Origin: an uncultured Fimbriimonadaceae bacterium
GTDB taxonomy: Bacteria; Armatimonadota; Fimbriimonadia; Fimbriimonadales; Fimbriimonadaceae
Direction: 5' to 3'
Assembly: GCA_937961665.1 (NCBI GenBank)
Contig: CALGMO010000039.1
Span: 1 to 45,944 of the forward strand
DNA: 45,944 nucleotides
In this document: positions 10,804 to 22,108 of the stretch, in pieces
Position numbering within the stretch: position 1 is the first letter of the stretch
Layout of the letters: each line of letters starts with the position of its first letter
Translations under genes and position numbers: made by a program
The notes under the pieces: model-generated
Told to the model about the DNA's origin: nothing
The model's database searches: none
What the model saw: the letters and a program-made list of their open reading frames with translations, nothing else

Positions 10804-12717
10804 ATGGTGTTCGGTAAGCGCATCGTCCCGTATTGCATCCTTCTTGCGACGGCGCTGATACCGGTCGCCCGTGCCCTCTTCTCCGCGGAAGCGGTCGGCG
10901 CGTTCGACCAGATCCGAGCGATGGCCCCATGGAACGGCCCCGAGCCGAAGCAGGCGTGGGACGTGCTCCAGGCGGATTCGGTTCTGCAGTTCTTCGTGTG
11001 GCGCAAGCTGGCGATCGAGGAGGGCCTGACCGAGACGAACCCCTACACCTTCGGCGGCTCGCCTCTGGCGGCCAACTCGCAATCGGCGGTCTGGTATCCG
11101 CCCCACGTGATCCTGCGGTGGCTGCGCGTTCGCGCCGACGACGCGATTGACCTGCTGGCTTGGTTCCACCTGTTCGTGCTCGGTGCGGGGGTGTTCGCGC
11201 TCTGCCGGAAGGCCGGCGCCGGGACGGCGCCCTCGGTGGCCTCGGCCATCGCCGTTCAGCTTTCGCCGTTCGCCTTGGGATGGCTCGCCTTGGCCAGCGT
11301 GCCCACGACGATCGCCTGGATCCCTTGGCTGTGCCTGGCGGTCTGGTCCGGGGTGGCGGGAAGCCGTTGGGGCTGGCTGTGGCTGGCGGCGTCGGGGGCG
11401 ATGCTGCTGACGGCCGGGCACCTGCAGTTCGCCGCCTACGGCGTTTTCGCGGCCTTCGCCGTCGCCGCGGGAGCGGCCGTGCGGCGCCTCCGATCGGGCG
11501 AGAGGCCTTGGCTCGGCCTGGCCTCGGTGGGAGTGGGCGGCGCCGCGGCGGTTGCCCTGGCCTGGGTCCACTTGGGGCCGGTGCTGGCGCTCTCGGCCGA
11601 GTCGCACCGACGCAACAGCCCGACCGAGGAGGGTTACGCGGCGTACGTGGGAGGCGCGATCCGGCCGCACGAGCTGGTCGGCAGGCTGGCCGGGCCGTTC
11701 GCCCACGGCAACCCTCTCGTCTCGCCGGAGTCGCTGCCGACGGAGTACCTGCCGGCGATCACCAGGCCCGGGGCGAACTACGCCGAGTCTGCGGCCACCG
11801 TCGGCCCGCTTCTGCTGGTGGGCGCCCTGGCCGCGCTCTTCGGTCCGGCCACGCGGAAGGCCGCCTTCTGGTGGGGGCTGGCGGCCTTCGCGGCACTGCT
11901 GGCGGCGGGCACCCCGCTCAACCGCCTGCTCTACTTCGGTCTGCCCGGTTGGTCCGCCAGCGGCTCGCCCGGCAGGGTGATCGTTCTCCTCGTGCTGGCG
12001 CTCGCTGTGGCGGCGGCCTTGGGTCTGACGCCGACGCAGGAGCAACCGGCCAAGACCGACCGCTGGAAGGTCGCCGCGCTCGCCCTTGCGTTCGGAATCA
12101 TGGCTGCGGGTGTGGCGTGGGGCGAGGAGCCCTACCCCCCGGGACTGCCCGATAGCCACCCGGCGGAGGTCGTTTGGATGGAGGTGTTCACGCGGAACGC
12201 GACGATGGTGGGTCTGTGGGGCTTCGCCGCGCTGGCCCTGGTCCCGATCGTCTGGGAGCGTCCGAGAGCCGCCTGGGCCCTGGCGGCCTACGCCGCCGCC
12301 TTTCCGATTCTGACGGGGGTGACCGCGCTCGTTCGCACCGGGGACCCCTCGTTCCTGAGGGAGAGGATCGAGGGCGTCGGTCCGGGCGACCTGGTGGCGA
12401 TCGTGAACGAGCACTGGACGTTCGTCGGCAGGCCCAGGGCGCTGATGCCGCCCAACACGGCGGCCGCCTCGGGCATCCGCGAGCTGGGCGGATACGACTC
12501 GCTGATGCGCCGCGACGTCAAGGCCCGGCTGGACGAGATCAACGGCCAGGATTCGAGCCCGCCCGCCAACGGCAACATCGCCTTCGTCAAGCCGACCGCC
12601 GACCCGGCCAAGCTCAAGGCCGCGGGGGTCACGCAGGTCTGGAGCCTGCGCGAGCTGCCCCGGGCGTTCGGCCCGGGCCAGAGGCACCCCCGCGGCTTCT
12701 GGGTGTACCGCCTTTAG
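10804..12717 (+). CDS. YfhO-like polytopic membrane protein
   Basis: A 637-residue membrane protein with many hydrophobic helices. The first large loop holds AMAPWNGP and YTFGGSPLAANSQ, then SAVWYPP, the layout of YfhO-type proteins, which resemble GT-C glycosyltransferases and are implicated in sugar transfer to cell-envelope polymers. A second conserved stretch is TAGHLQFAAYG. The C-terminal roughly 110 residues are a soluble domain ending in GFWVYRL. Donor and acceptor are unknown. It is divergent from the ClpS-like genes. TATCCT (10790-10795) lies 8 nt before the ATG with no Shine-Dalgarno. It ends 6 bp from the convergent E1 gene. Confidence 0.72.
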   Translation: MVFGKRIVPYCILLATALIPVARALFSAEAVGAFDQIRAMAPWNGPEPKQAWDVLQADSVLQFFVWRKLAIEEGLTETNPYTFGGSPLAANSQSAVWYPPHVILRWLRVRADDAIDLLAWFHLFVLGAGVFALCRKAGAGTAPSVASAIAVQLSPFALGWLALASVPTTIAWIPWLCLAVWSGVAGSRWGWLWLAASGAMLLTAGHLQFAAYGVFAAFAVAAGAAVRRLRSGERPWLGLASVGVGGAAAVALAWVHLGPVLALSAESHRRNSPTEEGYAAYVGGAIRPHELVGRLAGPFAHGNPLVSPESLPTEYLPAITRPGANYAESAATVGPLLLVGALAALFGPATRKAAFWWGLAAFAALLAAGTPLNRLLYFGLPGWSASGSPGRVIVLLVLALAVAAALGLTPTQEQPAKTDRWKVAALALAFGIMAAGVAWGEEPYPPGLPDSHPAEVVWMEVFTRNATMVGLWGFAALALVPIVWERPRAAWALAAYAAAFPILTGVTALVRTGDPSFLRERIEGVGPGDLVAIVNEHWTFVGRPRALMPPNTAAASGIRELGGYDSLMRRDVKARLDEINGQDSSPPANGNIAFVKPTADPAKLKAAGVTQVWSLRELPRAFGPGQRHPRGFWVYRL

Positions 12718-12723
12718 CGATCG

Positions 12724-15195
12724 CTACAGGCCGCACCGGCTGCGGTTCAGGATCTCCTCGGCTCCGCAGGCCCTTTGCGGCTGGTACCCGGGGAGCGGCT
12801 TCAGGTGCGTGTGCATCGCGTCGAGGATGTCGGACGGGAACGGGAAGAACGCCTCCTCCAGCTCGTCCGGCGGGGTGATCCAGTTCCGCGCGCCCACCAC
12901 GGTCGGCGGAGCGTCCAGCTCGTCGAACGCCAGCTGGGTGATCTTCGACGCCATCGTGTGCAGCACGCTCCCGCGCTCGCACGCGTCGCTCGCCAGGACG
13001 ATCTTGCGCGTCTTCCGCACCGACTCCAGCACGGGCTCGTAGTCGAACGGAACGATCGACCGCGCATCGATCACCTCGGCGGACACCCCGAACTCCCGCT
13101 CGAGCCGGTCGGCCGCCTCGAGGGCCCTGTACAGCGTGGCGCCGATCGTCAGGATCGTGACGTCCTCGCCCCGCCGCTTGACGTCCGGCAGACCGAACGG
13201 GATCTCGTACCATTCCTCCGGGACGCCGCCCGGGTGGAACAGCTCCGGCACGTCGTAGATCCGCTGGCTCTCGAAGAACACCACCGGGTCGGTGCCGACC
13301 AGCGCCGAGGCCAGCAGGCCCTTGGCGTCGTAGGGCGTCGCGGGGAAGGCCACCTTCAGGCCGGGCACGTGCGCCACCATCGCGGACCAGTCCTGGCTGT
13401 GCTGCGCGCCGTACTTGCTTCCGACGCTGACCCGCAGCACCACGGGCATGCGGAGCAGGCCGCCGCTCATGCTCTGCCACTTGGCCAGCTGGTTGAAGAT
13501 CTCGTCTCCAGCCCGGCCCATGAAGTCGCAGTACATCAGCTCGACCAAGGCACGGCCGCCTTCCAGCGCGTAGCCGACCGCCGAGCCGACGATCGCCCCC
13601 TCGCTGATCGGCGTGTTGAACAGCCGGTGGTAGGGCAGGGCCTCGGTGAGGCCGCGGTACACGGCGAACGCCCCTCCCCAGTCGCGGTTCTCCTCGCCGT
13701 AGGCCACCAGCGTGGGATCCTTCTGGAACGCCGCGTAGATCGCCTCGAACAGCGCGTCTCTCAGCGACACGCACTTGGCCTTGGGAAGCGGCTTGCCGTC
13801 CGGCCCGATGCCCGATCGGCTCTTGCCCGCGATCTGCCGCACGCGCGGGTTCTCCTCCGGCGTTCCGAGGAGCTCCGGCTCGCGGGCGGGATCCAGCGTC
13901 TCTGCCCTCTGGTTCGAGAGCATCGTCCGGTCCAGCAGGCAGCCCTCGCGCATCAGGTCGGCGCGGGGCGAGACCTCTGGATCGATGGCCTTCCGGAAGC
14001 AGCGGAGGATGACCTCGTCGATCTGCTCGCGGGTTCGCTGGAGCTCCTCCTCCGAGGCGACGCCCGCCCGGACCAGCTCCTCGGCGTAGGTCTTGAGCGT
14101 GTCGACCTGCTGCCAAGCCTCGACCTCCGACCGGTCGCGGTACGAGGACGCGTCCGACGGCGAGTGGCCGCTGAACCGGTAGGTCAGGGTGTCCAGCAGA
14201 ACCGGTCCGTCGCCCTCGGCCAGCACCCGCTTCTTGCGCTCGAAGGCGTCCACTACGGCGAGCGGGTTGTAGCCGTCCACGCGCTCCGCGTGCAGGTTGT
14301 TCGGGGCGAGCCCCGCGCCGATCCGCGCCAGCACCTTGAAGCCCATGGTCTCGCCCACGGGCTGGCCGCCCATGCCGTAGAAGTTGTCGACGAAGTTCAG
14401 GATCAGCGGCAGGCCGCCGCGATACGCCTCGTCCCACAGCTCCTTGTACTGGTCCATCGTGGCCAGGCACATCCCCTCCCAGACGGGGCCGCAGGCCGAC
14501 GAGGCGTCGCCGATGTTGCAGACCACCACGCCGCGCCTGCGGTTGATGTGCTTGAACAGCGCGGCCCCCACGGAGATGTCGCCCGATCCGCCGACGATCG
14601 CGTTGTTGGGGTAGATGCCGAACGGCGGGAAGAAGGCGTGCATCGATCCGCCCATGCCCTTGTTGAAGCCGGCCTCGCGCCCGAAGATCTCCGCCAGGGC
14701 GCCGTAGACCAGGTAGTCGATCGCCAGCTCCTTGACCGACGCGTGCGCCCCGTCGTCCACCACCCGCAGCGTCGCACCGTCCATGTATCCGCGGAAGATC
14801 GCCATCAGCTCTTCGTCCGGAAGCTGATGGATCGCCGAGAGCCCCTTGGCGAGGATCTCGCCGTGGCTTCGGTGGCTGCCGTAGATGTGGTCGTCGACCT
14901 CCAGCGCGAACGCCTGACCTACGGCGGCCGCCTCCTGACCGATCGAGAGGTGCGCCGGACCGCGGTGCTCGTAGGCGATGCCGCGGTACGCGCCCTTGAG
15001 CTTCACCTCGCTGAGCATCGACTCGAAGGCGCGGATGAGCGCCATGTCGCGGTAGATGCGCCGGAGGGCCTCCGGGCCGCGCCGCGCGACCTCCTCCTCG
15101 ATCGGGCGGTCGTACTGGTTGAGCGGGATCGGCGGGATCTCCAGCTGTCCCTTTCTGCGGACGTCTTCGGGTCGGATGGGAACGCTCTTGGGCAT
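12724..15195 (-). CDS. 2-oxoacid dehydrogenase E1 component, alpha and beta subunits fused
   Basis: An 823-residue thiamine-diphosphate enzyme. The alpha part (about 1-420) carries [23 protein letters not shown], the cofactor motif from GD (229-230) to N271, and [15 protein letters not shown]. The beta part (about 475-823) carries [32 protein letters not shown] and [14 protein letters not shown]1 decarboxylates a 2-oxoacid and acylates the lipoyl group of E2. Most relatives have two separate subunits, so the single chain is unusual. Substrate cannot be read from sequence. It follows deoR by 11 bp, and the matching E2 starts the divergent operon. E3 is absent from the window. Confidence 0.85.
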
Positions 15196-15206: not shown

Positions 15207-15983
15207 TCAGTTTCGCTGTTGTTCGGGTTCGGGGCAGACCAGGTCGATGCCGCGGGCCGCGAGGGCCTCGCGCCACGGCTCGCTGGGGGGCAAGTCGGTC
15301 ACGATGCGCGACACGGCCTCGAGGTCGGCGATGCGGAACAGCGACGGCGCTTGGAACTTGGTGTGGTCCACGAGCAGCACGGCGTCTCGCGCGTTCTTGA
15401 TCACGTGCTGGTACAGGTAGGCGGTCTGGATGTCCGTCGCGGAGATGCCGAACTCCAGGCTGAGCCCGTCCGCCCCGAGGAACGCCGTGTAGCCGCGGAG
15501 CTGGTCGATGGCGTTGGCCGCCAGCGGGCCGACGAAGTCCATCCGCTCCGGGCGGTAGTGCCCGCCGAGCTGGATCAGGGTGATCTCGGGGCACGGGCCG
15601 AGCTCCAGGGCCAGCCGCGTGGAGTTGACGATCACCGTGAGGTCTCGCCTGCGGCGCAGGCCGGGGCACATCTCGAAGCAGGTGCTTCCCGAGTCGACAT
15701 AGATCATGTCGCCGTCGGCCACCAGCTCGGAGGCGAGCTGGCCGATGATCCGCTTGGCCGACGCGTTCTGGCCGGCCCTCGAGGCGACCGACTCCTCGAC
15801 CGATCGCCGGATCGTCGCGCCTCCGTACACGAGGTCGATCAGGCGGCTGTCGGCCAGGGCGCGGAGGTCGCGGCGCACGGTTGCCTCCGAGACGTCCAGC
15901 TCGGAGGCGAGGTCCTTCACGGACACGTGCCCGCGGGCTTGGATCGCCTCGAGAATCGCGTCCCGTCGCGTCCGGGGCGCCAC
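15207..15983 (-). CDS. DeoR-family transcriptional repressor
   Basis: A 258-residue DeoR regulator. The winged helix-turn-helix is at residues 8-60 ([22 protein letters not shown]), with the signature Asp-Leu-Arg recognition helix. The sugar-phosphate-sensing domain holds [33 protein letters not shown] and [16 protein letters not shown]. The GTG at 15983 is preferred because GGGAGGG lies 9 nt upstream; another GTG at 15989 is too close to it. DeoR proteins usually respond to a phosphorylated sugar intermediate, which suggests the controlled pathway has one. It precedes E1 by 11 bp and is divergent from the E2 operon, with paired palindromes between them. Confidence 0.9.
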
Positions 15984-16051
15984 GCTCACCCGCCCTCCCT
16001 GTGGCGGAACCCGCTCAGTGCATGACGGAGTTCGATCATCCGTTGATGGAA

Positions 16052-16106
16052 TTGTGGCACAAAACGGGCGCTTCTCGCTTTGCGTTTGATCGAAATGTGT
16101 CACAAT
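16052..16106. promoter_or_regulatory. Paired operator palindromes in the DeoR/E2 divergent promoter
   Basis: Two copies of TTGTGnCACAA: a perfect one at 16052-16062 and one with a single mismatch at 16095-16105, with centres 43 bp apart (about four helical turns). Each is followed by T or preceded by a base giving a CACAAT hexamer, one reading toward E2 (16101-16106) and one toward deoR (16057-16052 on the minus strand). The sites may therefore overlap the -10 of each divergent promoter. TTCGATCA (16031-16038) and its complement TGATCGAA (16087-16094) add an outer inverted pair. DeoR is the natural candidate to bind; this is inferred from position. Confidence 0.65.
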
Positions 16107-16127
16107 GGGCGCAGGAGCCGTCGCAAG

Positions 16128-17363
16128 ATGTCCGACCAGCAGCAAGACGCCGTCACGCCGATCCTCCTGCCCCAGGCCGGCAACACGATGGAGGAGGGCA
16201 CGATTCTGGAGTGGAGGGTTTCGCCGGGCGATCGGGTGCGGCCGGGCCAGGTTCTGTTCGAGCTGGAGACGGACAAGGCCACGATTGAGGTCGAGGCCGA
16301 GACCGAAGGCCGGGTGGCCAAGATCCTCGTCCCCGCGGGGCAGAGCGTTCCGGTCAAGACGGTCGTGGCGCTGCTCGCCGAGGACGACGCCGCGGCGGAG
16401 AGGGTCGCGGCGCAAGCCGTCGGGCAAGCCGCCTCCGCGCCGCAGCCCGCCCAAGAGGCGCCGGATCGCCCTGCGGAGACCTCGGCGGAGCCGCGTCCCG
16501 CGCCGAGCCCTACCCGTCGCAAGGCCTCTCCGGCCGCGAGGGCGGCGGCCGCCGCGCTGGGCGTCGACCTGGATTCCATCCCTCAGGGCAGCGGCCCCGG
16601 CGGGCGGATCCTGAGGGAGGACGTCGAGCGGGCCGCGGCGCAGTCGAAGCCGGCCGCCCCGGAGCGGCCACGGCCACCAGCCCCCCAGCAGCCGGCGTCG
16701 GCGGGGGACCGGAGGCCGCTCTCGAAGATGCGCCGCGCCATCGCGCGCAACCTGACCGCGAGCAAGCAGCAGCTGCCGCACTGGTACCTGCGAACCACGG
16801 TGGTCGCCGACAACCTGGTTGCGTTCCACAAGAGGGAGAAGGCCCTGTACCCCTGCTCGCTGAACGACGTCGTGGTTCTGGCCGTGGCCCGGGCGATCCT
16901 CGAGATGCCGGAGTTCCGTTCTCGGCTGGAGGGCGAGGAGGTGGTCACGTTCGACTCGGTGAACATCGGGCTGGCGGTGGCGGTCGACGAGGGCCTGGTG
17001 GTGCCTGTGGTGCGCGGCGTGGACCGCATGAATCTGAAGGGCCTCGCGGCGGAGAGCCGCAGAGTGGTGGAGGCGGCGCGTGAAGGCCGGCTGGAGGGGG
17101 TCGGAGAGGGCGTGTTCACGGTGAGCAATCTGGGGATGTTCGGCGTGGAGGAGTTCGCCGCGATCATCAACCCGCCCGAGGTTGGCATCCTCGCCGTCGG
17201 GGCCGTTCGGGAGGAGGTCGTCGTGCAGGACGGCGCGATGCGGCCGGGTCGCAAGATGACGCTCACGCTGAGCGCCGACCACCGTCTGATCGACGGCGTG
17301 ACGGGCGCGCGCTTCATGGCCCGGGTCAAGGAGCTGCTGGAGGATCCGGCGTCGTGGGCCTGA
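16128..17363 (+). CDS. 2-oxoacid dehydrogenase E2 (dihydrolipoamide acyltransferase)
   Basis: A 411-residue E2. The lipoyl domain (about 10-85) has the modified Lys50 in ETDKATIEV. A Pro/Ala-rich linker leads to the peripheral subunit-binding domain (about 133-169, ASPAARAAAAALGVDLDSI and GSGPGGRILREDV). A second linker leads to the catalytic domain (about 195-411) with His385 and Asp389 in ADHRLIDG. It takes the acyl group from E1 and passes it to CoA. ATG 16128 has GCAGGAG 10 nt upstream. It opens an operon divergent from deoR-E1, so the complex is made from both sides of one control region. Confidence 0.92.
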   Translation: MSDQQQDAVTPILLPQAGNTMEEGTILEWRVSPGDRVRPGQVLFELETDKATIEVEAETEGRVAKILVPAGQSVPVKTVVALLAEDDAAAERVAAQAVGQAASAPQPAQEAPDRPAETSAEPRPAPSPTRRKASPAARAAAAALGVDLDSIPQGSGPGGRILREDVERAAAQSKPAAPERPRPPAPQQPASAGDRRPLSKMRRAIARNLTASKQQLPHWYLRTTVVADNLVAFHKREKALYPCSLNDVVVLAVARAILEMPEFRSRLEGEEVVTFDSVNIGLAVAVDEGLVVPVVRGVDRMNLKGLAAESRRVVEAAREGRLEGVGEGVFTVSNLGMFGVEEFAAIINPPEVGILAVGAVREEVVVQDGAMRPGRKMTLTLSADHRLIDGVTGARFMARVKELLEDPASWA

Positions 17364-18559
17364 GGGAGCTTCTCGCGGGATTGGGCGGCTCCGTTCCGAA
17401 GTGGGATCCCGAGCCCAGGCCGCACAACGCGCACATCCACCTTCCGCCGAACTTCTCGGCGTTCGACTCGGTGGAGGAGGCGGTGTCGCAGGCCCAGGCC
17501 GAGGGCGCGGTTCTGCTCGGGACCGCGAACTACTACGACTACGCCGTGTTCGAGCCCTTCGCGGCCCGGTGCCCGGCCGCGGGGATCTTTCCGCTGGTCG
17601 GCACCGAGATTCTGACGTGGATGGACGACTGCGCCGAGAGGGGTTGGCTGGTGAACGACCCCGGCAACCCGGGCAAGGCCTACCTGTGCGGCAAGGCGAT
17701 CGTCCGGTGCGCCGAGCCAACGGCTTGGGCCGCCGCCAAGCTGGGCGAGATCCGGGCGGGGGACTCCCGGCGGATGGAGCAGATGGCTGCTCGGATCGTC
17801 GAGGCGGCTCGCGCGGTCGGCCTGAAGCTCGAGCTAGGGGCCGACGGGGTTCGGGAGCGGGTGGCGCGGCGGCACCGGGTTCCCGTGGAGACGGTCGTTC
17901 TGCAGGAGCGGCACCTCGCGATGGCCGTGGCGGAGCGGCTCCTCGCGGCCGACGACCCCGAAGCCGCGGCCCGTCTGCTGGGCTGCGACCCGCCCACCGA
18001 CCCGATCCCCCTGCAGAACGAGGTGCGGAGCCGCCTGATGAAGGCGGGCAAGCCGGCCTACGTCGAGGAGAGGTTCGTGCCGTTCGAGGAGGCGGCGCGA
18101 CTGATCCGGGAGCTCGGCGGCGTGCCCTGCTATCCGGCCATCATGGACGGCATCCCGGGCGGGCCGTCCCGCTTCGAGAGCTCGCCCGAGGAGCTGGCCG
18201 AAAGGTTGGTGGAGCGGGGCATCCCCGCGATCGAGTTCATCCCGACCCGCAACGATCCCGATGTGCTCGAGGCCTATGCCGCGGCGGCGAGGTCGGCGGG
18301 GTTGGTGGTTGCGGCCGGGACGGAACACAACACGCTGGGGCGTCAGCCCATCCTGCCGACCTGCAAGGGCGGAGCGCCGATCCCGCGTCGGGCCGCCGAG
18401 CTGTTCTGGGAGGGGGCCTGCGTGTTGGCCGGTCACCAGACGGCAGTCGCGAAGGGCGAGCCGGGCTTCGAGGAGGCCGGCGGGGGCGTCGAGGAGCGCA
18501 TCGCGCGCTTTCGGGCCATCGGGTGCGCCGCGATCTTGGGAGTGTCGGACGATGCCTGA
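17354..18559 (+). CDS. PHP-domain-like metal-dependent hydrolase
   Basis: A 401-residue protein with motifs of the PHP superfamily of phosphoesterases: HNAHIHLP near the N-terminus (residues 24-31), LVGTEIL, and near the C-terminus AAGTEHNTLG. These supply the His, Glu and His ligands of a metal cluster. The central 200 residues (LVNDPGNPGKAYLCG onward) match nothing I recognise. The likely reaction is hydrolysis of a phosphate ester or ring bond, but no substrate is evident. GTG 17354 overlaps the E2 stop by 10 bp and its own end overlaps the next gene by 8 bp, so it is firmly part of this operon. Confidence 0.65.
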   Translation: MGLRELLAGLGGSVPKWDPEPRPHNAHIHLPPNFSAFDSVEEAVSQAQAEGAVLLGTANYYDYAVFEPFAARCPAAGIFPLVGTEILTWMDDCAERGWLVNDPGNPGKAYLCGKAIVRCAEPTAWAAAKLGEIRAGDSRRMEQMAARIVEAARAVGLKLELGADGVRERVARRHRVPVETVVLQERHLAMAVAERLLAADDPEAAARLLGCDPPTDPIPLQNEVRSRLMKAGKPAYVEERFVPFEEAARLIRELGGVPCYPAIMDGIPGGPSRFESSPEELAERLVERGIPAIEFIPTRNDPDVLEAYAAAARSAGLVVAAGTEHNTLGRQPILPTCKGGAPIPRRAAELFWEGACVLAGHQTAVAKGEPGFEEAGGGVEERIARFRAIGCAAILGVSDDA

Positions 18560-20495
18560 TCTGAGCAAGCTGGTGGAGGTCTCCAGGCGCTACGGCGCAG
18601 ACCGCGACTTCGTGATCGCCGGCGGCGGCAACACGTCGTACAAGGAGGGCGGGCGCATGTGGGTCAAGGCGAGCGGCGTCGCCCTGGCCGAGATCGACGA
18701 GTCGGGCTTCGTGGAAATGGATCTGGAGGCGCTCCGCTCGCTCGTCGGGCGCGACTTCGGGCCGGACCCGGACCTTCGCGAAGCTCGGTTCAAGGAGGCG
18801 ATCTACGCGGCGCGTCTGCGTCCCGAGCTGGGCCAGCGCCCCTCGGTCGAGTGCGCCGTGCACGCGCTGTTCCCGCACGCCTACGTGGTCCACACGCACG
18901 CGACGTACGCGAACATGGTCTCGTGCTGCGTGCAGGGAGAGGAGCTTTGCAGCGAGCTGTTCGAAGGTCGGGTGGTCTGGGTGCCGTACACGGACCCCGG
19001 CTTCTTGCTGGCCAAGTCGATCTCTGAGAGGCTGCGTGGGAGCGACGCGGACCGCCCCGTGGCCATGCTCTGGCAGAACCACGGCCTCGTGGTCGCCGCC
19101 TCCACGCCCGAAGAGATCGAGGACCTGACCGAGCGGCTTCTGGCGCGGGTCCGCGAGCGCGTGCCCGAATTGCCCCGGCAAGGGCCGGAACCGGAGAGCG
19201 AGATTCTCTGGAGGCTGCTGCCCAGCCTGAGGGGGGCCCTTCTGGCTCGGGGCTGGGCGAGCGTGCTTCGATGCCGGACGACCGGACCCGGGCGCGTCTT
19301 CGCCGACCACCCCGAGGCCCGGCGCCTGACCGCCCTCGGACCGCTCATTCCGGACCAGATCGTGTACTGCAAGTCGTTCCCGCTCTGGCTGGGGGCCGAG
19401 GAGGATCCCGCGGCGGCGCTGGACCGGCACGCCGAGGAGACCGGCTTCCCGCCGAGGATCGTGCTGGTCCCGGGAGTGGGCCTGATGTCCGCCGGCCCCA
19501 GCGCCAAGGAGGCCGATGCGGCCGCGGACATGTACGAGGACGCAGTCCGCGTGGCCCTGGGGGCGGAGGCCCTCGGCGGAGTCGCGCCGCTCTCGAAGCG
19601 AGACCGGGAGTTCATCGACGCGTGGGAGGTGGAGCAGTATCGCCGGCAGGTGGCCTCCGCCGGCGGCGGGGGGCGCTTCGCGGGCAAGGTCGCGGTCGTC
19701 ACGGGAGGGGCCCAAGGGTTCGGGCGCGGCATCGCGGAGCGGCTGGCGTCGGAAGGCGCGCACGTGGCCCTCTGGGATGTGTCGGCCGAGAATGCCGTGG
19801 CGGCTGCCCGGGAGATCCAGTCCGCCCACGGTCGCGGCCGCGCGGAAGCGGTGCAGACCGACGTCTCGGACGCGGACTCGGTCCGCCGCGCGATGACCGA
19901 GACGCTCCGGGCGTTCGGCGGGGTGGATCTGTTCGTTTCGAACGCCGGCATCCTGCGGGCTGGCAGCGTGAAGCTGCAGCCGCCGGAGGAGTTCGAGCGC
20001 GTCACCCGCGTCAACTACCACGGCTTCTTCGTCTGCTCGCAGGCCGCCGCACGGGTGATGGCCGCCCAGAACGCACAGAACCCCGGGGCGTGGACGGACA
20101 TCGTGCAGATCAACTCGAAGTCCGGCCTCCAGGGGTCGAACCGCAACGGCGCCTACGCCGGAAGCAAGTTCGGGTCGATCGGCCTCGTCCAGTCGTTCGC
20201 CCTCGAGCTGGTGGAGGACCGCATCAAGGTGAACGCCGTCTGCCCCGGGAACTTCTTCGACGGTCCGCTGTGGTCCGATCCGGAGAACGGCCTGTTCGTG
20301 CAGTATCTGCGCGAGGGCAAGGTGCCGGGGGCCAAGACGGTGGAGGACGTTCGGCGGTTCTACGAGAGCAAGGTGCCCATGGGCCGCGGCTGCGGCGTCG
20401 AGGACGTCTACCGGGCGATCGTGTACGTCGTGGAACAGCAGTACGAGACCGGCCAGGCCCTGCCGGTGACCGGCGGCCAAGTGATGTTGAACTAG
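18552..20495 (+). CDS. Class II aldolase fused to a short-chain dehydrogenase
   Basis: A 647-residue two-domain enzyme. Residues 1 to about 365 form a class II (adducin-type) aldolase: IAGGGNTSYKEGGRMWVKASG, then zinc ligands in VVHTHATY and WQNHGLVV. Residues from about 376 form an SDR with nucleotide motif VVTGGAQGFGRG and the Ser-Tyr-Lys site in INSKSG and AYAGSKFG. The SDR closely recalls sorbitol-6-phosphate 2-dehydrogenase SrlD, including KVPMGRGC and a terminal TGQALPVTGGQVM. The same layout occurs in the rhamnulose-1-phosphate aldolase/dehydrogenase RhaEW. It would cleave a phosphorylated ketose or interconvert it with a polyol phosphate; the true substrate is unknown. Confidence 0.85.
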   Translation: MPDLSKLVEVSRRYGADRDFVIAGGGNTSYKEGGRMWVKASGVALAEIDESGFVEMDLEALRSLVGRDFGPDPDLREARFKEAIYAARLRPELGQRPSVECAVHALFPHAYVVHTHATYANMVSCCVQGEELCSELFEGRVVWVPYTDPGFLLAKSISERLRGSDADRPVAMLWQNHGLVVAASTPEEIEDLTERLLARVRERVPELPRQGPEPESEILWRLLPSLRGALLARGWASVLRCRTTGPGRVFADHPEARRLTALGPLIPDQIVYCKSFPLWLGAEEDPAAALDRHAEETGFPPRIVLVPGVGLMSAGPSAKEADAAADMYEDAVRVALGAEALGGVAPLSKRDREFIDAWEVEQYRRQVASAGGGGRFAGKVAVVTGGAQGFGRGIAERLASEGAHVALWDVSAENAVAAAREIQSAHGRGRAEAVQTDVSDADSVRRAMTETLRAFGGVDLFVSNAGILRAGSVKLQPPEEFERVTRVNYHGFFVCSQAAARVMAAQNAQNPGAWTDIVQINSKSGLQGSNRNGAYAGSKFGSIGLVQSFALELVEDRIKVNAVCPGNFFDGPLWSDPENGLFVQYLREGKVPGAKTVEDVRRFYESKVPMGRGCGVEDVYRAIVYVVEQQYETGQALPVTGGQVMLN

Positions 20496-20497
20496 CC

Positions 20498-22108
20498 ATG
20501 AGCGACCTGCCAGACACCCAGCGCGCCATCCAGCTCGTCGGACCGGACCAGATCCGCCTGAATCCCTCCAAGCCGGTGCCCCGTCCCAAGGGCCGCCAGA
20601 TTCTGGCCAAGGTCGAGGCGGTCGGACTGTGCTTCTCGGACATGAAGCTGCTGCATCAGTTCGACCGGCACGTCCGGAAGGCGCCGGTGGAGTCCGGCGT
20701 GGACCCGGAGGTGCTGGCCGAGCTGCCCAGCTACGTTCCCGGAAGCCAGCCCACGGTGCCGGGCCATGAGGCCGTGATCCGCATCGTCGCCGTGGGGCCG
20801 GACGTGCAATGGTACCGACCTAGCGAACGCTACATCGTGCAGGCCGATTTCCGTCGGCTCCGGGTGCCCACCGCCAACGCGGCCTTCGGCTACAACTTCG
20901 AGGGTGCGCTGCAGGAGTACGCGCTGCTTGACGAGAGGATCGTGGGCGACCCGGACGATCCCGACTCGTACCTGATTCCCGCCCCGGAGGGGCCGAGCGC
21001 CTCGTCGATGGCGCTGGTGGAGCCTTGGGCCTGCGTGGAGAACAGCTACAGCTCGCCCGAGCGGCGCAGGCCGCTTTCAGGCGGAAGGCTGCTGCTGTTC
21101 GGAGCGGGCGTGGAGGAGAGGCGGCGGGTGCTGGAGCTTTATGACCGGGGTCCCGAGCTGATCGCCGAAGCCCGCACCCTGGACGCTCTCTGCGCCCTCC
21201 CCGATGCGTCGTTCGACGACGCAGTTCTGTTCCGACCGACCGCCGAGGCCGTCGAGCTGGTGTCGGACAAGCTGGCGGACAGGGGCATCGCCAACCTGGT
21301 CCTCGCGGGCGGCAAGCTCGGACGAGCCTGCACCATCGGCATCGGCCGCCTGCACTATGGCGGCTGCCGGTGGGTCGGCACCACCGGCGTGGACCCGGCG
21401 GACGGGTACGCGTGGATTCCGGAGACCGGCGAGCTGCGGCCGGGCGATCGGATGCTGGTCGTGGGCGCCGGCGGGCCGATGGGCCAGATGCACGTGCTCC
21501 GCTCGCTGATGGGGGGATTTGGGGCCACCGTGGTGGCCGCGGACGTGGACGACGGGCGCCTGGAGGCGCTGGCCCGAAAAACGGGGCGGCTGGAGGAGTT
21601 CGTTCCGGCCAACCCGGCCCGCTCCGACCTCGGCGGCGGGTTCACCTACGCCGCCGTCATGGCTCCCGTTCCGGATCTGGTCGCCGACGCCCTGGCGAGG
21701 TGCGCCGAGGGCGCTCTGGTCAACGTCTTCGCCGGAATCCAAGTTGGCGTGAAGCACCCGTTCGACCTCGACGCCGTGGTGGGCAAACGGGTCTTCCTCT
21801 TCGGCACGAGCGGATCGGAGACGCGCGACATGCGCTCGGTGCTCGCCAAGGTGCTGGAGCGCCGGCTGGACACCGACGCCTCGGTGGCGGCCGTGTGCGG
21901 CATGGCGGGAGCGGAGGACGGCCTGCGGGCCGTGGAGCGCCGGACGATCGAGGGCAAGATCGTCGTCTACCCGTGCCTGAAGGATCTGCCGCTCACCCCG
22001 CTGGGCGAGCTAGGTCGGGTGTGCCCCGAAGCGGCGGCGGCGCTCCGGGACGGAGGGTGGTGCCTCGAGGCGGAGCGCGCGCTGCTCGCGGCTTTTGCCG
22101 GCGCCTAG
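20498..22108 (+). CDS. Enlarged zinc-dependent alcohol dehydrogenase (MDR family)
   Basis: A 536-residue medium-chain dehydrogenase. Catalytic zinc ligands are Cys45 (GLCFSD), His90 and Glu91 (PGHEAV). The nucleotide fold appears near 316-330 (GDRMLVVGAGGPMG). At 195-310 there is an additional segment that starts like another Rossmann fold (GGRLLLFGAG) but lacks its full glycine pattern, which explains why it is about 150 residues longer than usual. L-sorbose-1-phosphate reductase (SorE) is also an MDR that partners an SrlD-type SDR, so a polyol or ketose phosphate substrate is plausible. It starts 2 bp after the aldolase-SDR stop and ends next to the ilv promoter. Confidence 0.8.
   Translation: MSDLPDTQRAIQLVGPDQIRLNPSKPVPRPKGRQILAKVEAVGLCFSDMKLLHQFDRHVRKAPVESGVDPEVLAELPSYVPGSQPTVPGHEAVIRIVAVGPDVQWYRPSERYIVQADFRRLRVPTANAAFGYNFEGALQEYALLDERIVGDPDDPDSYLIPAPEGPSASSMALVEPWACVENSYSSPERRRPLSGGRLLLFGAGVEERRRVLELYDRGPELIAEARTLDALCALPDASFDDAVLFRPTAEAVELVSDKLADRGIANLVLAGGKLGRACTIGIGRLHYGGCRWVGTTGVDPADGYAWIPETGELRPGDRMLVVGAGGPMGQMHVLRSLMGGFGATVVAADVDDGRLEALARKTGRLEEFVPANPARSDLGGGFTYAAVMAPVPDLVADALARCAEGALVNVFAGIQVGVKHPFDLDAVVGKRVFLFGTSGSETRDMRSVLAKVLERRLDTDASVAAVCGMAGAEDGLRAVERRTIEGKIVVYPCLKDLPLTPLGELGRVCPEAAAALRDGGWCLEAERALLAAFAGA

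Follow-up and report, generated by a model that had tools for sequence, protein, structure and literature searches.

The window analysed here is the whole 45,944-nucleotide stretch of DNA, which is contig C39 of the genome of an uncultured Fimbriimonadaceae bacterium (G000; 2,880,785 bases in 142 contigs). On its minus strand, deoR (15207-15989) encodes a 260-aa DeoR-family regulator, in which an N-terminal helix-turn-helix (Pfam HTH_DeoR, PF08220, 2e-15) and a C-terminal sensor domain (DeoRC, PF00455, 9.6e-43) both scored above the curated cut-off. When the protein was searched against its own genome, only itself was matched at E <= 0.001. Downstream of deoR, on the same strand, lies a gene for the E1 component of a 2-oxoacid dehydrogenase (12724-15195), a single protein that comprises both the alpha and the beta part. 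A divergent set on the plus strand begins with the gene for the E2 component, a lipoyl acyltransferase (16128-17363), 138 bp from deoR counted from start codon to start codon, and continues with genes for a PHP-like protein (17354-18559), a class II aldolase/short-chain dehydrogenase (SDR) fusion (18558-20495) and an alcohol-dehydrogenase-like protein (20498-22108). The PHP-like protein, part of the conserved operon, has 401 aa, no Pfam match at E <= 0.001 and a weak NCBIfam match to nucleoside bisphosphate phosphatase, and the fusion enzyme scored 308.6 bits against a RhaD cut-off of 567.75. A 637-aa protein without Pfam match at E <= 0.001 is encoded at 10804-12717.

This gene order was kept in five relatives (G002, G121, G123, G113 and G154). 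The closest named match of the regulator came from a Fimbriimonadales bacterium (L010, 91% identity), followed by two Armatimonadota records at 59-60%. A search of the phylum matched DeoR in 12 of 291 genomes at E <= 2.3e-88, the next match being at 3.4e-38, and in 8 of these 12 loci deoR was divergent to an E2 (6) or a PHP (2) gene. In the remaining loci (L018, L019, L021 and L023), no E2 or PHP gene divergent to deoR was found within the 1.5-kb flank.

Palindromes between deoR and the E2 gene

Two copies of TTGTGnCACAA were confirmed in the gap as they had been described in the initial annotation: palindrome 1 (TTGTGGCACAA, 16052-16062) is perfect and palindrome 2 (ATGTGTCACAA, 16095-16105) has one mismatch, with centres at 16057 and 16100 and thus 43 bp apart. 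They were the only matches with at most one mismatch in the window, compared to a mean of 0.30 in shuffled sequence, where 4 of 100 shuffles reached two or more. A CACAAT hexamer is present at each and points to a different gene, on the minus strand of palindrome 1 (16051-16056) to deoR and on the plus strand of palindrome 2 (16101-16106) to the E2 gene, and the predicted pair of divergent promoters was retained. Palindrome 1 additionally reads CACAAA on the plus strand, while palindrome 2 has CACAAT on the plus strand only; the outer arm is TTG at site 1 and ATG at site 2.

Outer repeats, said to frame the palindromes, were placed differently by our analysis, since TGATCGAA (16087-16094) lies between the two palindromes and touches site 2, the other arm being TTCGATCA (16031-16038). 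Two further repeats had gone unmentioned, namely a 20-bp direct repeat and an inverted pair of 16-mers (see below). Copy 1 of the direct repeat (16043-16062, plus strand) consists of a weaker half-site, TGATGGAA, and palindrome 1, and copy 2 (16086-16105, plus strand) of the half-site TGATCGAA and palindrome 2; the copies are identical at 17 of 20 positions.

The genome scan for the 11-mer that had been proposed returned two perfect copies, palindrome 1 and one at C109:13879, and 22 sites with at most one mismatch; the reversed control pattern gave 80 such sites, and TTGTGnCACAA therefore has no genome-wide excess. Among the ortholog gaps, copies with at most one mismatch were found only in the window and in its nearest relative, G002, and copies with two mismatches were located upstream of deoR in L021 and L022. 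In G002, the right palindrome is perfect and the left has two mismatches; the arm reads TTG on the E2 side and ATA on the deoR side, with TGTCACAAT whole at both promoters, including the position matching the deoR-side -10 of the window. The perfect copy in this gap is the only one in the G002 genome, in which the reversed control also occurs once. Because TGnCA is its own reverse complement, the near-palindromic look comes mostly from the word TGnCACAAT: TGnCACAA supplies 7 of the 10 specified palindrome bases and only TTG is extra. Symmetry may nevertheless carry some function, as the 11-mer exceeded shuffles across the 8 divergent ortholog gaps (0/500) and G002 has its single perfect copy there.

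TGnCACAAT as an extended -10 word

Extended -10 promoters carry TG one base before the hexamer, and the -10 elements of leaderless genes sit close before the start. In TGnCACAAT, TGn directly precedes a -10 hexamer ahead of starts, and the palindromes are most likely the start signals, or extended -10 elements, of two opposite promoters. The element TGCCACAAT (16051-16059, minus strand), part of palindrome 1, faces deoR 61 bp before its GTG, and TGTCACAAT (16098-16106, plus strand), part of palindrome 2 and kept in G002, faces the E2 gene 21 bp before its ATG. No -35 element was returned by a sigma-70 two-hexamer scan of 15900-16250. The TTG arms of the window sites are left over by the extended -10 reading, which gives no account of them.

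In the whole genome, TGnCACAAT, mostly as TGCCACAAT, occurred 19 times, compared to 3 for the reversed control. Of these, 17 were intergenic and pointed to a called start 5-99 bp away. One was situated in the last part of a called gene and preceded the next start by 18 bp, and one was inside a called gene, 7 bp ahead of an in-frame ATG that lies 114 bases past the called start (letters counted by hand). Seven of the 19, six at called starts and the one at the in-frame ATG, had a distance of 5-7 bp, which is expected of a -10 element if transcription starts at the start codon and suggests leaderless genes in this Armatimonadota lineage. In a sample of 596,043 bases (the window and 36 other stretches, 68.4% G+C), 512 genes were called with a custom script trained on nine window genes, which also defined the gene starts. 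All 10 TGnCACAAT words of this sample fell within its 45,157 intergenic bases, with a start ahead at 5-61 bp, and none in the remaining 550,886 bases. Since the word is placed before starts genome-wide, the window sites are part of a wider promoter class. In the 113 co-directional gaps of the sample, [CT]A[CT]AAT was found 17 times in sense and once in antisense orientation, and CACAAT alone 4 times and once, respectively.

Across 25 genomes, G000 included, TGnCACAAT followed by six bases and ATG was found 45 times, against 4 for the reversed control. The bare word exceeded its control in G002 (23/1), G001 (15/0), G154 (23/9) and G121 (69/32), showed a weak excess in G123 (89/60) and had none in G113 (57 vs 51). 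When 244 upstream regions were searched de novo for 10-mers, the top motif was GGtA.aaTgg, a -10-like sequence; searching in antisense yielded the reverse complement of this motif from the same sites and is thus not usable as a control. The word resembles extended -10 and leaderless promoters in the TGn before the hexamer, the lack of a clear -35 and the position of several copies 5-7 bp ahead of a start; it differs in its hexamer, CACAAT, and in the G+C content of the sample. By title and abstract opening, no transcription start mapping for Armatimonadota was found in our literature search. In the E2 gaps of L014, L015 and L020, a different promoter word, TTGCGCTATyCT, was seemingly present when read by eye, and the corresponding word in the L022 gap reads TGTGGCATAGT, also by eye.

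A fully symmetric version, ATTGTGGCACAAT, is located at G000:C109:13878-13890 (L057, L121, L122), where a 13-bp palindrome reads TGnCACAAT in either direction and separates a divergent gene pair whose called starts are 55 and 47 bp away. The neighbouring genes presumably encode FmdB and TerC proteins, and ATTGTGGCACAAT is a candidate two-way promoter. Symmetric -10 sequences have been reported to drive divergent transcription, and in that report the term "bidirectional promoter" excludes separate divergent promoters (PMC12825309). The present words are like those bidirectional promoters in that a near-symmetric -10 word, with full symmetry at C109, lies between divergent genes, and unlike them in that each window transcript would have a -10 word of its own, 43 bp from the other. 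Our wider proposal for this lineage is tentative, and we consider it somewhat less likely than not: TGCCACAAT would represent a regular extended -10 class, often of leaderless or very short-leader genes, whose palindromic versions, at C109 and in the window, would be two-way promoters that one local repressor could close both ways.

A candidate DeoR operator

DeoR itself probably recognizes different repeated words that lie next to the -10 elements, and TGATCGARnTnYGTCA is a likelier DeoR operator than the palindromes. Its two copies form the inverted pair of 16-mers. The deoR-side candidate (TGATCGAACTCCGTCA, 16023-16038, minus strand) is identical at 13 of 16 positions to the E2-side candidate (TGATCGAAATGTGTCA, 16087-16102, plus strand), which overlaps the E2 extended -10; a match of 13 was also reached in 2 of 100 mononucleotide shuffles, and taken by itself the pair is weak. 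The 8-mers TTCGATCA and TGATCGAA lie within this pair. Both window copies contain the half-site TGATCGAA, and the candidate operator contains TCGAA. The centres are 64 bp apart, or about six helical turns, a spacing that allows joint binding.

The 16-mer TGATCGAACTCCGTCA was found identically in the deoR gap of G121, which 0 of 300 shuffle pairs reproduced, and the DeoR proteins of the two loci are 58% identical. TGATCGA occurs twice in each of the gaps of L005 (window), L006 (G002), L014 (G121) and L015 (G123), giving 8 in the 8 divergent ortholog gaps against a shuffle mean of 0.43, a number reached in 0 of 500 shuffles, the ortholog set being small with two pairs each from one genus. In the gaps of L016, L017 (a fixed 150 bases), L020 and L022 it is absent, and thus the operator is not fixed across the ortholog group. 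G002 has two copies 21 bp apart on the deoR side, and its E2-side operator is degenerate. Among the 230 intergenic intervals in the sample that measure 40 bases or more, two contain TGATCGA at least twice, namely the deoR-E2 gap and an uncalled 914-base stretch opening L099. The consensus TGATCGARNTNYGTCA has two perfect matches in the genome (16023-16038, minus strand; 16087-16102, plus strand) and three with one mismatch elsewhere; as it was derived from these very sites, it is the 16-mer in G121 and the number of TGATCGA words that give independent support.

Of five other near matches of TGATCGARNTNYGTCA (in G121:C80, at G002:C80:17556, and in C45, C51 and C67 of G000), four fell within open reading frames, and the one in C67 lies near a contig start. 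A palindromic consensus, TGATYGARYTCRATCA, was too loose to define a regulon, matching at two mismatches 9 sites in G000 and 8 to 51 in six other genomes. The gaps without TGATCGA contain two copies of TTGTGCA (reached in 17 of 500 shuffles) and four of TGTGCA (11 of 500). In the DeoR helix-turn-helix, the residue before VSEAT is D or E in the four divergent orthologs with TGATCGA in the gap (L005, L006, L014, L015) and C or G in the four without it (L016, L017, L020, L022), the orthologs being few and related. Our literature search found nothing joining the DeoR family with TTCGATCA.

Regulation of the divergent gap

We consider it probable that the gap holds two back-to-back extended -10 promoters and that the local DeoR binds the TCGAA-type 16-mers, shuts both promoters and is released by a metabolite. 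The proposal that DeoR shuts both transcripts is kept as the best model, with its operator moved from the palindromes to other words. Within the 138-bp gap, TGCCACAAT would drive deoR and TGTCACAAT the E2 gene, from predicted start sites near 16044 (minus strand) and 16113 (plus strand), and DeoR would recognize TCGAA-type half-sites in the 16-mers TGATCGARnTnYGTCA. The E2-side site (16087-16102) shares five bases with the extended -10, and DeoR bound there would cover the upstream part of this element and exclude RNA polymerase. The deoR-side site (16023-16038) follows shortly after the deoR -10, from where DeoR would repress its own gene. The inducer that releases the repressor would be a pathway metabolite, probably either a sugar or a sugar phosphate. 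A weak point of this model is that a start near 16113 leaves the E2 transcript a leader of about 15 bases, opening at its AGGAG. Overall, this would be a self-regulated metabolic switch of a common type.

In the model first proposed, DeoR would recognize the palindromes themselves, either cooperatively or with a loop spanning 43 bp. This would fit the two copies in one short gap adjoining deoR, the single perfect copy of G002 in the same gap and the finding that the 8 gaps contain the 11-mer more often than shuffled sequence does. We regard it as unlikely, since no copy with at most one mismatch was found in the gaps of orthologs beyond the window and G002, the left copy of G002 has two mismatches, and the part conserved is the directional promoter word, which precedes starts genome-wide, whereas TGATCGA accompanies DeoR in more distant orthologs. 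Alternatively, both promoters might be controlled through the palindromes by a different regulator with no relation to DeoR. For this speak TTG arms commoner than the other genomic TGnCACAAT sites would suggest and the perfect copy between two other divergent genes at C109:13879; the reading is improbable nonetheless, as the 11-mer lacks a genome-wide excess and the C109 site can be read as a two-way promoter. Just as improbable to us is a reading in which the 20-bp direct repeat forms two tandem E2 promoters and the upstream one (TGGCACAAA, site 1), together with the deoR promoter that it overlaps, acts in both directions. The copies agree at 17 of 20 positions, TGGCACAAA is on the plus strand of site 1, and symmetric -10 sequences are reported for divergent transcription (PMC12825309), but G002 is without the TGATSGAA part at both places and its plus-strand word is TGACATATT. 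Under the preferred model, the operator can be told apart from the promoter in a conserved divergent operon where both overlap, which provides testable words for each in a little-studied phylum. The genome-wide promoter word TGCCACAAT is a more useful by-product than the local regulation.

The closest parallel is RhaR of Chloroflexus aurantiacus, a DeoR-family protein which, according to PMC3870299, bound in an EMSA a 38-bp operator with four TCGAAA sites in tandem and was released by L-rhamnulose; motifs of DeoR-family RhaR proteins are described there as direct repeats with a 10-11 bp period. Our locus is similar in the protein family, in a candidate site ahead of the regulator's own gene, in TCGAAA-type half-sites that may follow that period, and in an aldolase/dehydrogenase fusion within the putatively regulated set. 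By eye, the plus strand of the window reads TCGAAA (16090-16095) and, 10 bp on, TCACAA (16100-16105), and the minus strand reads TCAACG, TCGAAC and TCATGC, spaced 11 and 10 bp. Such tandem units fit TGATCGAA and not TTGTGnCACAA, if the analogy applies. Unlike the four tandem units described for Chloroflexus, only two or three weak or degenerate units per side were seen by eye, the fusion enzyme falls short of the RhaD cut-off and the set includes the E1 and E2 genes. As the fusion enzyme is far under that cut-off, we did not name the protein RhaR. No match to rhamnose isomerase or kinase was found among the seven proteins scanned, which gave no sign of rhamnose-gene control. Two more distant DeoR relatives, L007 and L008, have 33% identity. 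They adjoin a gene that we take to encode L-rhamnose isomerase, and a separate rhamnose-type regulator may exist in the DeoR family here.
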